Origin: Planctomycetota bacterium
GTDB taxonomy: Bacteria > Planctomycetota > Phycisphaerae > FEN-1346
Length of the DNA stretch: 5,069 nt
Reading direction: 5' to 3'
Assembly (NCBI GenBank): GCA_026386995.1
Contig: JAPLMO010000461.1
Coordinates: forward strand, 1 to 5,069
Shown here: positions 1 to 5,069 of the stretch, piece after piece
Position numbering within the stretch: the first letter of the stretch is position 1
Layout: every line of letters starts with the position of its first letter
Program-made: the position numbers and the translations under genes
Notes under the pieces: generated by a model
Told to the model about the DNA's origin: nothing
The model's database searches: none
The model's input: only the letters and a program-made list of their open reading frames with translations

Positions 1-615
1 CGTGAGTTTCTCGATGCGGGCGATGAACGCCGCGTTGCCGGCCGGGCGGCCGGTGCGGGAACTGGCGCGGATCGTCTCGACCATGGCGGCATCCTCGCCG
101 GCGCGAAGCCACTTCGCCCAATTCCCGGCCTTGCCGCGCACCTCCAGGCCGCCGGAAAGCAGGGGGTCCTTGCGCAGGCCCGCGTGGCCGCCGGCGCTCG
201 ACCAGGGGTAGCGGTCGGGGCGGAGGATGAGTCCGGCCCGCAGGGGATTTCGCTCGATGAAGCGGATGGCCTCCCACGCGTGCCGCTTGTCCAGCGGGCA
301 AGATGCGAACCGGCCGGCCCATACGATGCCGCGGTTCTTGCGCGTCCGGCGGAGGTACGCGGAGTAGTGACTCTGAAGGGGCATGAGCGCGGCCGCCAGC
401 GACCCAGCCTCCTTCGGCACGGCCACGAGGTGCACGTGGTCGGGCATCAGGCACCAGGCCCGGATCTGGAGGCGATGGGCGGCGGCGTAGCCGGTCAGAA
501 GGTCCAGGAACCGGCGGCGGTCCTGGTCGTCGAAGAACAGGGCCTTCCCGCGCCTGGCCCGCAGGACGACATGGTGCGGCAGTCCCGGAATGACCAACCT
601 TGCTGAGCGTGGCAT
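1..615 (-). CDS. REP-associated tyrosine transposase (RAYT, Y1/HUH superfamily), C-terminus outside window
   Basis: A single-strand DNA transposase of the IS200-like Y1 family, of the domesticated RAYT type that acts on REP palindromes. The frame is open from ATG 613-615 to the window edge, giving 205 residues without a stop. It starts MPRSARLVIPGLPHHV, the usual RAYT N-terminus. The HUH metal-binding motif is His60-Val-His62 in MPDHVHLV. The probable nucleophile is Tyr84 in LQSHYSAYLRR. Further family signatures are WAGRFASCPL (99-108), FIERNPLRAGL (119-129), YPWSSA (136-141) and the C-terminal TGRPAGNAAFI (188-198). Related proteins end a few tens of residues after that last motif, so little is missing. 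No Shine-Dalgarno precedes the ATG; a promoter lies 6 nt upstream instead. The family assignment is firm. Whether it still mobilises anything, and which repeat it recognises, cannot be read here. Confidence 0.93.
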   Translation of the reverse strand, partial: MPRSARLVIPGLPHHVVLRARRGKALFFDDQDRRRFLDLLTGYAAAHRLQIRAWCLMPDHVHLVAVPKEAGSLAAALMPLQSHYSAYLRRTRKNRGIVWAGRFASCPLDKRHAWEAIRFIERNPLRAGLILRPDRYPWSSAGGHAGLRKDPLLSGGLEVRGKAGNWAKWLRAGEDAAMVETIRASSRTGRPAGNAAFIARIEKLT

Positions 616-3119: not shown

Positions 3120-3992
3120 ATGGCTGAACGCAAGTTGGGACGCGGCCTGGAGGGCCTCATGGATAGCGCCACTCACCAGCCCATCCCGGCCCTGGCGCCC
3201 GAGCCGGCCATTGCCCAGGGCCCCCAGTCTACGCTGCCCGTTTCCGTCCTCGACCCCAACCCGTACCAGCCCAGACAGGGGATGGAACCGGCGGGCCTGG
3301 AGCACCTGAAGGCGTCGATCCTCGAGCATGGCGTGCTCCAGCCCATCGTCGTCAGGCGGGCCGGAGACCGATTCCAGGTGATCGCCGGCGAGAGGCGGTT
3401 CCGCGCGGCACAGAGCGCGGGGCTGGCCGAGGTCCCCGTCATCATCCGCGAGGCAAACGATGACGACATGCTTGAACTGGCCCTCGTCGAGAACCTCCAG
3501 CGCGAGGACCTCGACCCCATCGAGAAGGCCACCAGTTTCAAGGCATACCTGGACCGCACCCACCGCACGCAGGAGGCCGCCGCAACCAGGCTCGGCCTGG
3601 AACGCAGCACCCTGTCGAACATGATCCGCCTGCTGGAACTGCCGCAGGAAATCCAGGCGATGCTTAGGACGGGCCTCCTGGCGATGGGCCACGCACGGGC
3701 GATGCTCTCCGTCGAGGTTCCCACGCGGCAGATCGAGATTGCCGAGCGGGTCGTCAGGGAGGGACTGTCGGTCCGCCAGGTCGAGCGCCTCGCCGGCCCC
3801 GCCCCTTCCGCAAGGCGCAAGTCCAAGCGGGCCGCCAAGCCCGCGGATGTCCGCGACCTGGAGGCCAAACTGCGTGAGGCCCTGGGGACTAAGGTGCTGG
3901 TCGAGGAAGGCCAGAAACCCGGCACAGGCAAGATCGTCATCGAGTTCTACAGCCACGACGACCTTGATCGGATCATGAGCCGCTTGACGTAA
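3120..3992 (+). CDS. parB: ParB/Spo0J-family CTP-dependent partition protein
   Basis: The centromere-binding protein of the partition system; it loads at parS, switches to a CTP-bound sliding clamp and stimulates ParA. It has 290 residues, normal for chromosomal ParB. The N-terminus MAERKLGRGLEGLM (1-14) is the ParA-contacting peptide. The CTP-binding motifs are NPYQPR (47-52), EHGVLQPI (69-76), GERRFRA (90-96) and ENLQR (124-128). The parS-reading helix-turn-helix is TQEAAATRLGLERSTLSNMI (150-169). A basic linker (about 230-240) leads to the C-terminal dimerisation domain, DVRDLEAKLREALG to DLDRIMSRL (243-289). AGGAG (3108-3112) is 7 nt before the ATG. The gene follows parA by 19 nt and precedes a parS-like site by 9 nt. 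All key motifs look intact, so it should be functional. Confidence 0.96.
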   Translation: MAERKLGRGLEGLMDSATHQPIPALAPEPAIAQGPQSTLPVSVLDPNPYQPRQGMEPAGLEHLKASILEHGVLQPIVVRRAGDRFQVIAGERRFRAAQSAGLAEVPVIIREANDDDMLELALVENLQREDLDPIEKATSFKAYLDRTHRTQEAAATRLGLERSTLSNMIRLLELPQEIQAMLRTGLLAMGHARAMLSVEVPTRQIEIAERVVREGLSVRQVERLAGPAPSARRKSKRAAKPADVRDLEAKLREALGTKVLVEEGQKPGTGKIVIEFYSHDDLDRIMSRLT

Positions 3993-4001
3993 CCCCGCTG
4001 T

Positions 4002-4017
4002 TGTTCCACGTGGAGCA
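4002..4017. other. parS: parS-like centromere site
   Basis: TGTTCCACGTGGAGCA is a 16-bp near-palindrome centred on CACGTG. The widely conserved parS is TGTTYCACGTGRAACA; this copy fits at every position except the third from the end (G for A), which also makes the only mismatched pair of the palindrome. It starts 9 nt after the parB stop codon, a common place for parS. Two other CACGTG-type stretches in the window lie inside genes and do not match the flanks. Confidence 0.85.
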
Positions 4018-4115
4018 CCACGGCCTCGCATCCACTTCGACAGTGCAACTTCCGTATTGTGTGCGGCGGTTCTATCGCCAGGCGACTCTTCGACCTGAAC
4101 CGGTACGGCGTCAGT

Positions 4116-4201
4116 GGGGTAGCATGGTCGCGCTGCTGCGTGACCATGTTTTCACCCGTCGGCAGGTGCATGGTCACGCAACAGCGTGACCATGCCACCC
4201 C
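4116..4201. repeat. REP doublet: two inverted hairpins forming a long stem
   Basis: Each half is itself a hairpin. The right one is perfect: CATGGTCACGC (4169-4179), loop AACA, then GCGTGACCATG (4184-4194). The left one (4123-4133 with 4138-4148) has one mismatch. The halves are also inverted copies of each other over about 32 bp (4116-4147 against 4170-4201, three mismatches) around a 22-nt centre. The left half is preceded by GTAG (4119-4122), the tetranucleotide at the foot of many RAYT-associated REP sequences. The arrangement resembles the BIME doublets of enterobacteria. Confidence 0.8.
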
Positions 4202-4247
4202 CGTAACTAACGCTCTACCTAAACCGCCGCGCAAACCCCCATATTTA

Positions 4248-4271
4248 GCCCCCGGTGAATTCACCGGGGGC
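4248..4271. repeat. 24-bp perfect palindrome centred on GAATTC
   Basis: Arm GCCCCCGGTGAA (4248-4259) is followed immediately by its exact reverse complement (4260-4271). Its left arm is the left terminus of the mosaic block and its right arm overlaps the start of the first 71-bp direct repeat copy. Confidence 0.85.
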
Positions 4272-4332
4272 CGAACGTTCACAGGCGCCCTCGGCGCGCC
4301 GCCCCCGTATATTCACGGGTACGTGTTTAGCG
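4262..4332. repeat. 71-bp direct repeat, copy 1
   Basis: Identical to 4456-4526 at 69 of 71 positions, 194 bp apart; the differences are at 4281 (A against G) and 4309 (A against G). It includes CCGGGGGCCGAACGTTC near its start and ends with GTACGTGTTTAGCG (4319-4332). Sequence identity ends abruptly after 4332, where insert 1 begins. Confidence 0.92.
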
Positions 4333-4333
4333 C

Positions 4334-4424
4334 TGTCATTCTGAGGCCCCGTTTACGGGGCCGAAGAATCCTGCCGTTTGGACGGCCGAGATTCTTCGCT
4401 CGTTTTCGCTCGCTCAGAATGACA
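4334..4424. repeat. Insert 1: TGTCATTCTGAG-type inverted repeat
   Basis: TGTCATTCTGAG (4334-4345) pairs perfectly with CTCAGAATGACA (4413-4424). Inside are an 8-bp stem (4345-4352 with 4355-4362), CGAAGAATC (4362-4370) with GATTCTTCG (4390-4398), and GCCGT (4373-4377) with ACGGC (4382-4386). The TGTCATTCTGAG/CGAAGAATC combination resembles a dispersed intergenic repeat found in many unrelated bacterial genomes (recalled, not checked). The unit sits between the two 14-bp arms at 4319-4332 and 4439-4452. Confidence 0.78.
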
Positions 4425-4438
4425 ACTCTTGCCTGGCA

Positions 4439-4526
4439 CGCTAAACACGTACACACACCGGGGGCCGAACGTTCGCAGGCGCCCTCGGCGCGCCGCCCCC
4501 GTGTATTCACGGGTACGTGTTTAGCG
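4439..4526. repeat. 88-bp inverted-repeat unit (contains direct repeat copy 2, 4456-4526)
   Basis: The unit begins CGCTAAACACGTAC (4439-4452) and ends with the exact reverse complement GTACGTGTTTAGCG (4513-4526). A GGGGGC stretch near the left and GCCCCC near the right continue the symmetry with mismatches. It is the only copy in the window with both ends; 4262-4332 keeps only the right part and 4657-4670 only the left end. Confidence 0.85.
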
Positions 4527-4531
4527 GAGCG

Positions 4532-4655
4532 AGCAAAGGGGGGCTGCAGCCAGTTCCCGCTGTATGGTAATGGGGGCTGTCCCCTTTTCCGGCCGGGCAA
4601 AGAGGACAGTCCCCTTTTCGCAAAGGCGCGAAAAGGGTACAGCCCCCTTTGCCCC
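4532..4655. repeat. Insert 2: GGGGCTGTCCCCTTTT-type palindrome cluster
   Basis: GGGGGCTGTCCCCTTTT (4572-4588) pairs with AAAAGGGTACAGCCCCC (4631-4647) at 16 of 17 positions. Nested inside is CCCTTTTCGC (4612-4621) with GCGAAAAGGG (4628-4637), perfect, and a tandem-like GGACAGTCCCCTTTTC (4604-4619). The outer edges, GCAAAGGGGGGCTG at left and CAGCCCCCTTTG at right, are inverted with one extra G. GGCTGCAGCC (4542-4551) is a further 10-bp palindrome. The cluster lies between the 14-bp arms at 4513-4526 and 4657-4670. Confidence 0.78.
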
Positions 4656-4656
4656 A

Positions 4657-4670
4657 CGCTAAACACGTAC
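4657..4670. repeat. Third left-end copy of the 14-bp arm CGCTAAACACGTAC
   Basis: Identical to 4439-4452 and the exact inverse of 4319-4332 and 4513-4526. It is followed directly by the closing arm of the mosaic block (4671-4685), so the remainder of the 88-bp unit is absent here. Confidence 0.85.
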
Positions 4671-4751
4671 ATTCACAGGGGGCTAATGCTACAGCGCCAC
4701 CTGGGTCCGCATCAACCGCTCAAGAATTCAAGCGTGGGCCGTTCTTAGATT

Positions 4752-4809
4752 GTAGCGCGGGGGTTTATCCCCCGCGCGATCCTGCACGGGGCACAAGGCC
4801 CCGCGCTAC
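4752..4809. repeat. REP-like stem with GTAG foot (GTAGCGCGGGG type)
   Basis: GTAGCGCGGGG (4752-4762) pairs perfectly with CCCCGCGCTAC (4799-4809). Competing with it, GCGCGGGGG (4755-4763) pairs with CCCCCGCGC (4769-4777) around the loop TTTAT. A third small stem, GGGGC/GCCCC, lies in the right half. Starting with GTAG fits RAYT-type REPs. The two alternative folds share the same left arm. Confidence 0.8.
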
Positions 4810-4907
4810 GGCGCGTAAGTCTGGTTACTGCAAGAGGTTGCGTTCATTGCCACGCAACAAGTGGCGTTGTAGTATTAGTCGCCTGTGACGATTGACTCTG
4901 CGGGTGC

Positions 4908-4929
4908 CACGGTCGCCGCGGCGACCGTG
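4908..4929. repeat. 22-bp perfect palindrome
   Basis: Arm CACGGTCGCCG (4908-4918) is followed without a spacer by its reverse complement CGGCGACCGTG (4919-4929). It ends 17 nt before the stop codon of the transposase fragment on the minus strand, so it could fold in that transcript's 3' end. No U run follows, so it is not a clear intrinsic terminator. Confidence 0.8.
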
Positions 4930-4946
4930 CTAGTAGTCCGTAACAG

Positions 4947-5069
4947 CTATATTACAGGGTACAGCCTTTTCAGTTTGATTCGGGCGTCGGTGGTGGTGAA
5001 TCGCCAGTCGATGCCCGTCTTCTTATCGTTTCTCGAACATTCCCACGGCGTGATTCGGGCGGCCAGTTG
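4947..5069 (-). CDS. C-terminal end of a probable IS630-like transposase (N-terminus outside window)
   Basis: A minus-strand frame enters from the right edge and stops at TAG (4947-4949), giving the last 40 residues of a protein. The tail contains ECSRNDKKTGIDWRFTTTDA followed by RIKLKRLYPVI at the C-terminus. The pattern R-N-x(n)-I-x-W-x-F-T-x(3)-A-R-x-K-L-x(2)-L-Y-P resembles the ends of IS630-family (DDE, Tc1/mariner-related) transposases, which close with a short tail after the last catalytic Glu. None of the catalytic residues are visible, so the family call rests on this tail alone and is tentative. That the frame is coding is more secure: codon usage is normal and the reading frame is not explained by a neighbour. 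No terminal inverted repeat could be identified between the stop and the palindrome at 4908-4929. Confidence 0.55.
   Translation of the reverse strand, partial: QLAARITPWECSRNDKKTGIDWRFTTTDARIKLKRLYPVI

Follow-up and report, generated by a model that had tools for sequence, protein, structure and literature searches.

The window, by which we mean the whole 5,069-nucleotide stretch of Planctomycetota DNA analysed here, carries a transposase-type gene and a palindrome at its start:

4-612, minus strand: RAYT-like Y1_Tnp transposase gene (PF01797, 4.2e-10)
655-730: palindrome formed by the inverted repeat GGGACAGCGCCAG...CTGGCGCTGTCCC, just upstream of the RAYT-like gene

The gene at 4-612 scored 62.4 bits against the model for REP-associated tyrosine transposases, below the cut-off of 80. 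Pfam assigned an ABC-2 permease and an acylphosphatase to the minus strand as well, followed by parA and parB on the plus strand. Between the RAYT-like and permease genes, the A+T-rich palindromic words GTATATACT and ACTATAGTA recur at 776-797 and 985-1030. The relatives of ParB were from Planctomycetota, with the best loci (65-68% identical) in MAGs of this phylum, which makes an uncultivated planctomycete the very probable source. Across the order permease-acylphosphatase-parA-parB, the window aligned as one stretch with the loci L002 and L003 and as two with L001, and all three alignments end just 3' of parB. A parS-like site, TGTTCCACGTGGAGCA, lies at about 4002-4017, just 3' of parB, and similar sites are found 3' of parB in the same three loci.

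A block of palindromes lies 250 bp 3' of parB. Its position and its folding, which was far better than that of shuffled sequences (z -11.6), would suit an RNA or DNA structure under selection 3' of parB (terminator, attenuator or partition site) that owes nothing to mobility. We consider this extremely improbable. The original prediction had proposed aligning related parB-downstream regions to see which layers were absent; in the three relatives inspected (760 bases read 3' of parB in each), the whole block was absent. Furthermore, the same elements occur at many unrelated sites in relatives, no terminator-like site was detected in 3950-5069, and Rfam returned only four microRNA models, all far below their gathering scores, as chance hairpin matches that do not make the block an RNA family. 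A terminator or promoter array was likewise rejected, as promoter-like sites numbered 1 against 0.4 expected. A coding role for the open reading frames spanning the block was also rejected, these being without a Pfam match.

A hairpin array interrupted by two inserted elements

The 14-bp sequence GTACGTGTTTAGCG is present at 4319-4332 and 4513-4526 on the plus strand, and its reverse complement at 4439-4452 and 4657-4670. With up to two mismatches allowed, these were the only four matches in the window, whereas 200 shuffles of the window gave a mean of 0.01 matches, a maximum of 1 and never four. The central claim of the original prediction, that the same 14-bp inverted pair encloses two different inserts, was thus borne out. 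Two further features had not been described there. One is a 71-bp direct repeat (4262-4332/4456-4526, 97% identical). It consists of a hairpin-plus-spacer unit and the first arm, and makes the left flanks of both inserts one repeat unit present twice. The other is a direct target duplication adjoining the arms, which matches at 7/8 positions for insert 2 (ATTCACGG/ATTCACAG) and poorly, at 5/8, for insert 1 (ATTCACGG/ACACACCG). The block and the palindrome preceding it are composed as follows (TIR, terminal inverted repeat; G and L numbers denote genomes and loci):

4116..4201: free-standing palindrome without arms, homologous to the interior most often bracketed by TIRs in G002
4248..4271: hairpin R1, intact, a perfect 12+12 palindrome (GCCCCCGGTGAATTCACCGGGGGC)
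4272..4300, plus strand: spacer copy 1 of the hairpin array, 28/29 identical to spacer copy 2
4301..4318, plus strand: left half of hairpin R2, ending in the would-be left target copy ATTCACGG (8 bases, 4311-4318)
4319..4452: miniature TIR element 1, 134 bp, with 14-bp TIRs at both ends and a length within the range of the relatives' copies
4319..4332, plus strand: left TIR of element 1
4333..4438: palindromic interior 1, of the TGTCATTCTGAGG...CAGAATGACA type
4439..4452, minus strand: right TIR of element 1
4453..4465, plus strand: right half of hairpin R2, opening with the 8 bases ACACACCG, which agree with the left target copy at 5/8 positions
4466..4494, plus strand: spacer copy 2 of the hairpin array
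4495..4512, plus strand: left half of hairpin R3; its last 8 bases are ATTCACGG (4505-4512)
4513..4670: miniature TIR element 2, 158 bp, with target copies ATTCACGG/ATTCACAG (7/8)
4513..4526, plus strand: left TIR of element 2
4527..4656: palindromic interior 2, of the GGGGACAG/CTGTCCCC type, with no class-level match among the relatives' 60 interiors
4657..4670, minus strand: right TIR of element 2
4671..4683, plus strand: right half of hairpin R3, starting with the target copy ATTCACAG (4671-4678)

Elements 1 and 2 break hairpins R2 and R3 at the identical point. The R1 hairpin type is dispersed in relatives, where the listed matches include 5 distinct places in G001 and 9 in G002; spacer copy 1 was not found in the other loci fetched when up to 6 mismatches were allowed. 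The block had also been described as enclosed by 15-nt outer inverted ends. Their pairing is real (4245-4260/4671-4686, 15/16 complementary, 94%), but they do not delimit one unit: the left end is part of the intact R1 and the right end is the 3' half of R3, and the two are complementary because the array repeats one hairpin. The block is two MITE-like elements with IS66-type ends, nested in a REP-like hairpin array. Two more palindromes without arms lie in the same intergenic region, at 4752-4809 (GTAGCGCGGGGG...) and 4905-4925 (GGTCGCCGCGGCGACC).

The arms as ends of a family of miniature transposons

Arms were searched for in 101 genomes, namely that of the best ParB relative (G001) and 100 of its kin. 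The exact 14-mer was present in 8 of the 101, with most copies in G006 (47+46), G002 (39+40) and G004 (11+8), compared with a total of 3 matches for the reversed control pattern across the same genomes. G001 itself had no exact arm. In an even draw of 392 genomes across the phylum, the exact arm was found in one (G287, two arms) and the control pattern in 13, once each. A search of viral contigs for paired arms 100-130 apart gave no match.

Copies were then retrieved through exact arms among the matches listed (30 loci and 80 regions). Allowing each arm up to 3 mismatches and the two arms a separation of no more than 400 bp yielded 60 distinct pairs, a set that leaves out two of three overlapping rows of locus L152. 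For a further 53 arm rows, 30 of which lie close to where the fetched stretch ends, no second arm was found within 400 bp. Both arms were exact in 9/60 pairs and one arm in 50/60; since an exact arm was the means of retrieval, one of the two arms in each copy is conserved partly by design of the search. When copies were instead retrieved by their interiors, both arms accompanied 28 of the top 30 copies from G002 and 15 of 30 from G006, the other 15 being cut by contig ends. A class-weighted profile showed at least 92% agreement at bases 1-14 and 70% at base 15, and fell to near background thereafter. The 60 copies measured 57-244 bp (median 143). Taken together, these results showed that the 14-bp arms are the TIRs of a miniature transposon family.

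The original prediction had suggested listing what lies between the arms in relatives, and this revealed nine classes of interior when the window's own two were included (described below), as well as near-empty copies of 57 bp in total (L172 and L181). It had also named two findings that would speak against it: the block occurring only as one invariant unit, or the arms occurring only with these same two inserts. Neither was observed, as the interiors of the window were not seen at class level in the 60 copies, which instead fell into seven other classes.

Target duplications and preferred insertion sites

A flanking 8-bp direct repeat was perfect in 35/60 paired copies and matched at 7/8 or better in 42/60, whereas re-dealing the flanks among copies (2000 trials) gave a mean of 0.9 and a maximum of 6. 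The remaining 18 pairs had no duplication of at least 7/8, and 10/60 matched at 4/8 or less. Empty sites were rebuilt for the 42 copies whose duplication matched at 7/8 or better. A hairpin score of at least 8 was reached by 23/42 rebuilt targets versus 2.1% of 2181 control sites (p 1e-10), and a score of at least 10 by 12/42 versus 0.4%, a contrast that may look larger than it is since the control sites were random flank positions, mostly unmatched for intergenic location. Another 19 of the 42 targets, many from G006, were not clear hairpins.

A single REP-like palindrome, GGYGGGTC...GACCCRCC, accounted for 13/42 targets, and it was struck by different interior classes at two symmetrical 8-bp positions, GGGTCTCC and CCTGACCC. 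The hairpin type of the window was also hit in a relative: in L237 (G002), an element with another interior lies between GCCCCCGGTGATTACACCG and ATCCACGGGGGGC, at the equivalent point, with a duplication of only 5/8. Given L237 and the repeated targeting of palindromes in relatives, the simplest history of the block is two separate insertions, into R2 and R3, even though the duplications there are only 5/8 and 7/8, respectively.

A different history would start from one insertion, followed by tandem duplication of the occupied hairpin unit and replacement of one interior through recombination between the arms (cassette exchange). It would account for the 71-bp repeat at 97% that comprises the left flank and left arm of both elements, for the identical insertion point in R2 and R3, and for the poor duplication at insert 1 (5/8), as expected of flanks shuffled by recombination. 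However, elements of differing interior class occupy the same positions of one palindrome at different genomic places in relatives, and L237 is a separate insertion into the window's own hairpin type. Such separate insertions at the same point show that a repeated strike there needs no duplication, and we regard cassette exchange as unlikely.

Separate insertion also bears on the modular assembly envisaged in the original prediction. Many inserts between constant arms and repeated insertion at a preferred palindrome were indeed found, but the order of the layers has to be reversed. REP-like units were thought to insert into the palindrome of the arms; instead, transposon-type ends carry a REP-like palindrome into another REP-like hairpin.

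An IS66-family transposon with near-identical ends

In G052 and G097, an arm lies directly 3' of reading frames that end inside it. These ends were 78% and 75% identical to DNA of G065, where the TIR, with 2 mismatches, forms the end of a frame matching PF03050 (7e-8). The short C-terminal peptides at the G052 and G097 arms had no Pfam match alone, and both contigs stop inside the IS66-ended element. A protein search of 150 genomes for an intact source near G052 matched only the query's own genome, G065. With the G065 frame as query against 397 genomes of the class, 22 had a match. Among these loci, L289 contains a 1484-bp element between GTACGTGTTCAGCG and CGCTGAGCACGTAC, ends that each differ from the arm by 1-2 mismatches. 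Its single transposase passes NF033517 (222 bits, cut-off 180; PF03050 2.4e-34), and its stop codon lies inside the TIR. An IS66-family transposase between nearly the same ends is thus found in L289, with partial copies in L295 and L306, where the exact arm immediately follows an IS66-type C-terminus, and in G065. The 8-bp duplication expected of the family was seen around the miniature copies but was not recognisable around the L289 element.

Four other IS66-family loci (L296, L300, L302 and L305) have the end GTAACTGTTTACCG, 3 mismatches from the arm; this end bridges the arm and the published GTAA ends. One further locus has another 3-mismatch word, probably by chance, and 15/23 non-query IS66 loci showed no arm-like end. 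No arms lay near the remaining IS66 loci retrieved from G001, G052, G058 and G097, and PF03050 was not found in G002, G004, G005 and G006, which include the three arm-richest genomes (G002, G004 and G006). Contigs of multi-copy insertion sequences are often missing from MAGs, and such a loss would explain the absence of PF03050 from arm-rich genomes. We infer that a transposase of the L289 type or a close relative in the window's genome moved the two elements of the window.

Interiors and free-standing palindromes

Interiors were classed by an all-against-all comparison of the relatives' 60 and the window's two, with similarity required over at least half of the shorter sequence. This gave nine classes, of 27, 15, 8, 6 and 2 members and four singles, and each interior of the window is a single. 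G002 and G006 each contain more than one class between the same ends. The inserts of the window had been described as palindromes, in agreement with which both interiors were more self-complementary than dinucleotide shuffles (z -6.4 and -4.7). Among the 58/62 interiors that could be folded, the test leaving out those with N or fewer than 40 bases, the median z was -4.7, with 42 under -3 and six above -2. Palindromic content of the interiors is the rule.

Interior 1 shares 40-44 bp at 84-86% identity with TIR-bracketed interiors of G006 and G005 (in one, 26 bp at 92%), so some classes are partly related. Its type gave 41 matches, many partial, in G003, which has no exact arm. Three of the G003 loci (L084, L090 and L096) have interior-1-type palindromes enclosed by a different candidate inverted pair, GGTAATAGTAATGTCC/GGACATTACTTTTGCC, perhaps a second set of ends for the same content. 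Interior 2 had no match among the relatives' 60 interiors and shares only 11-bp pieces with the palindrome at 655-730.

The free-standing palindrome at 4116-4201 is homologous to the interior of L176 in G002 (90 aligned bases at 74% identity, E 1.4e-10). Searching five genomes with it returned 29 loci, with arms on both sides in 8, on one side in 3 and on neither in 13; one was cut by a contig end and 4 were repeats. The armless copies came from G001 and G003, both lacking an exact arm, from G006, and from G002, where bracketed ones occur as well. One of the 13, L325, resembles a decayed bracket; 5/13 end in a similar tail, about AACTGAGGGATT as judged by eye, and this shared tail points to flanks of their own. 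Of 30 loci found with a G004 interior, 12 had both arms, 11 one and 4 neither, 2 being cut and 1 a repeat. Together with the G002 and G006 copies retrieved by their interiors, this indicates that interiors are amplified jointly with the arms. At least one interior family therefore exists both free and bracketed, and the ends appear to capture repeat palindromes. The interiors would then have arisen by capture of free palindromes and not by their release.

The abundance of free-standing palindromes and the Y1_Tnp gene in the window might also suggest that a REP-associated tyrosine transposase, for example that at 4-612, dispersed the palindromes in the form of single-stranded hairpins, with the arms as conserved parts of the repeats. 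This is very improbable as an account of the block, given the 8-bp target duplications, the interchangeable interiors between constant ends and the association of the arms with IS66-type transposases. Neither such duplications nor such interiors are known as features of REPIN movement. REPIN/RAYT activity may nevertheless be the origin of the free-standing palindromes.

Relation to known systems and proposed mechanism

The elements resemble the IS66 family in their 8-bp duplications (the duplication length is 8 in the IS66 rows of a table in PMC3281130), in arms that start with GTA, and in the family transposase between near-identical ends in L289. They differ in that the window's elements have no gene and in TIRs of 14 bp, whereas the IS66 ends given as examples in PMC12888890 start with GTAA and have TIRs of 20-24. 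Like bacterial MITEs, they are short (57-244 bp), gene-free, TIR-bounded and flanked by target duplications, with dozens of copies. Their TIRs are common to dispersed copies, including both elements of the window; the fixed-length duplication is seen in the relatives' copies, while the window has 7/8 and 5/8 only; and neither element has a transposase gene (134 and 158 bp, no Pfam match). According to PMC3189936, MITEs usually derive from their parent by internal deletion. Here, in contrast, only 14 bp are common with the parent, conservation ends at base 14, and the interiors are unrelated repeat palindromes of several kinds per genome; we therefore use the term MITE-like.

Insertion close to the axis of a dispersed repeat's palindrome has been reported for IS1397, ISPsy8, ISRm22, ISPpu9 and others (PMC1525189), and insertion into REP-like palindromes above expectation was likewise observed here. 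The families in that survey are IS3, IS110, IS4, IS256 and IS5; IS66 is absent from its text, and IS66-type ends join the list of elements that prefer REP-like hairpins. The difference is that here miniature elements target REPs and carry REP-like palindromes themselves. The spaced hairpin array R1-R3 and the dispersed free palindromes recall REPINs and BIMEs with RAYT transposases (see also PMC3116915 and PMC2817692). The TIR elements differ from them in inserting with duplications and in their interchangeable interiors. IS66 ends bearing foreign passengers are also described for tIS66 elements with passenger genes and mobile insertion cassettes (PMC12888890), but there the passengers are genes beside a transposase, whereas here the passenger is a palindrome and there is no transposase. 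A search of open-licence PMC papers gave no report of this element family. All parts have known relatives; their combination (14-bp ends only, interchangeable repeat palindromes, hairpin targets) was not found described in that literature.

We conclude with high confidence that the block is a three-copy REP-like hairpin array in which R2 and R3 are each interrupted, at the same loop point, by a non-autonomous MITE-like element with 14-bp IS66-family TIRs. The two interiors are entirely unlike, each holding a palindrome that belongs to a different dispersed repeat family. In the proposed mechanism, a transposase acting in trans would recognise the TIRs only. The element would then be inserted with an 8-bp target duplication, favouring the loop region of intergenic hairpins. 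As only the ends would be needed, any palindrome landing between two TIRs could be amplified as a new subfamily, and the set would differ per lineage. Direct support exists for the TIR family, the 8-bp duplications, the hairpin targets, the differing interiors, the free and bracketed forms, and an IS66 element with near-identical ends. More tentatively, and with somewhat less than even confidence, the 14-bp IS66 ends may be a general packaging signal, by which each Planctomycetota lineage would capture its local free REP-like palindromes, form TIR-bounded subfamilies and insert them with a preference for the loops of other REP-like hairpins; TIR-type and REP-type repeats would thereby build nested mosaics from each other.

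Mosaic palindromes between genes occur widely in uncultivated bacteria and are rarely explained, and here a single family of short ends accounts for a whole nested block. This shows a route by which repeat palindromes that do not themselves belong to this transposon type can spread as passengers. The two-element reading predicts exact empty sites, with the junction GCCCCCGTGTATTCACGG continuing into GGGGC at R3. The 14-mer combined with 8-bp duplications provides a simple probe for such elements in MAGs, the contigs of which they also break: in G006, G052 and G097, many contigs stop 109-141 bp past an arm, that is, the assembly breaks inside these elements.
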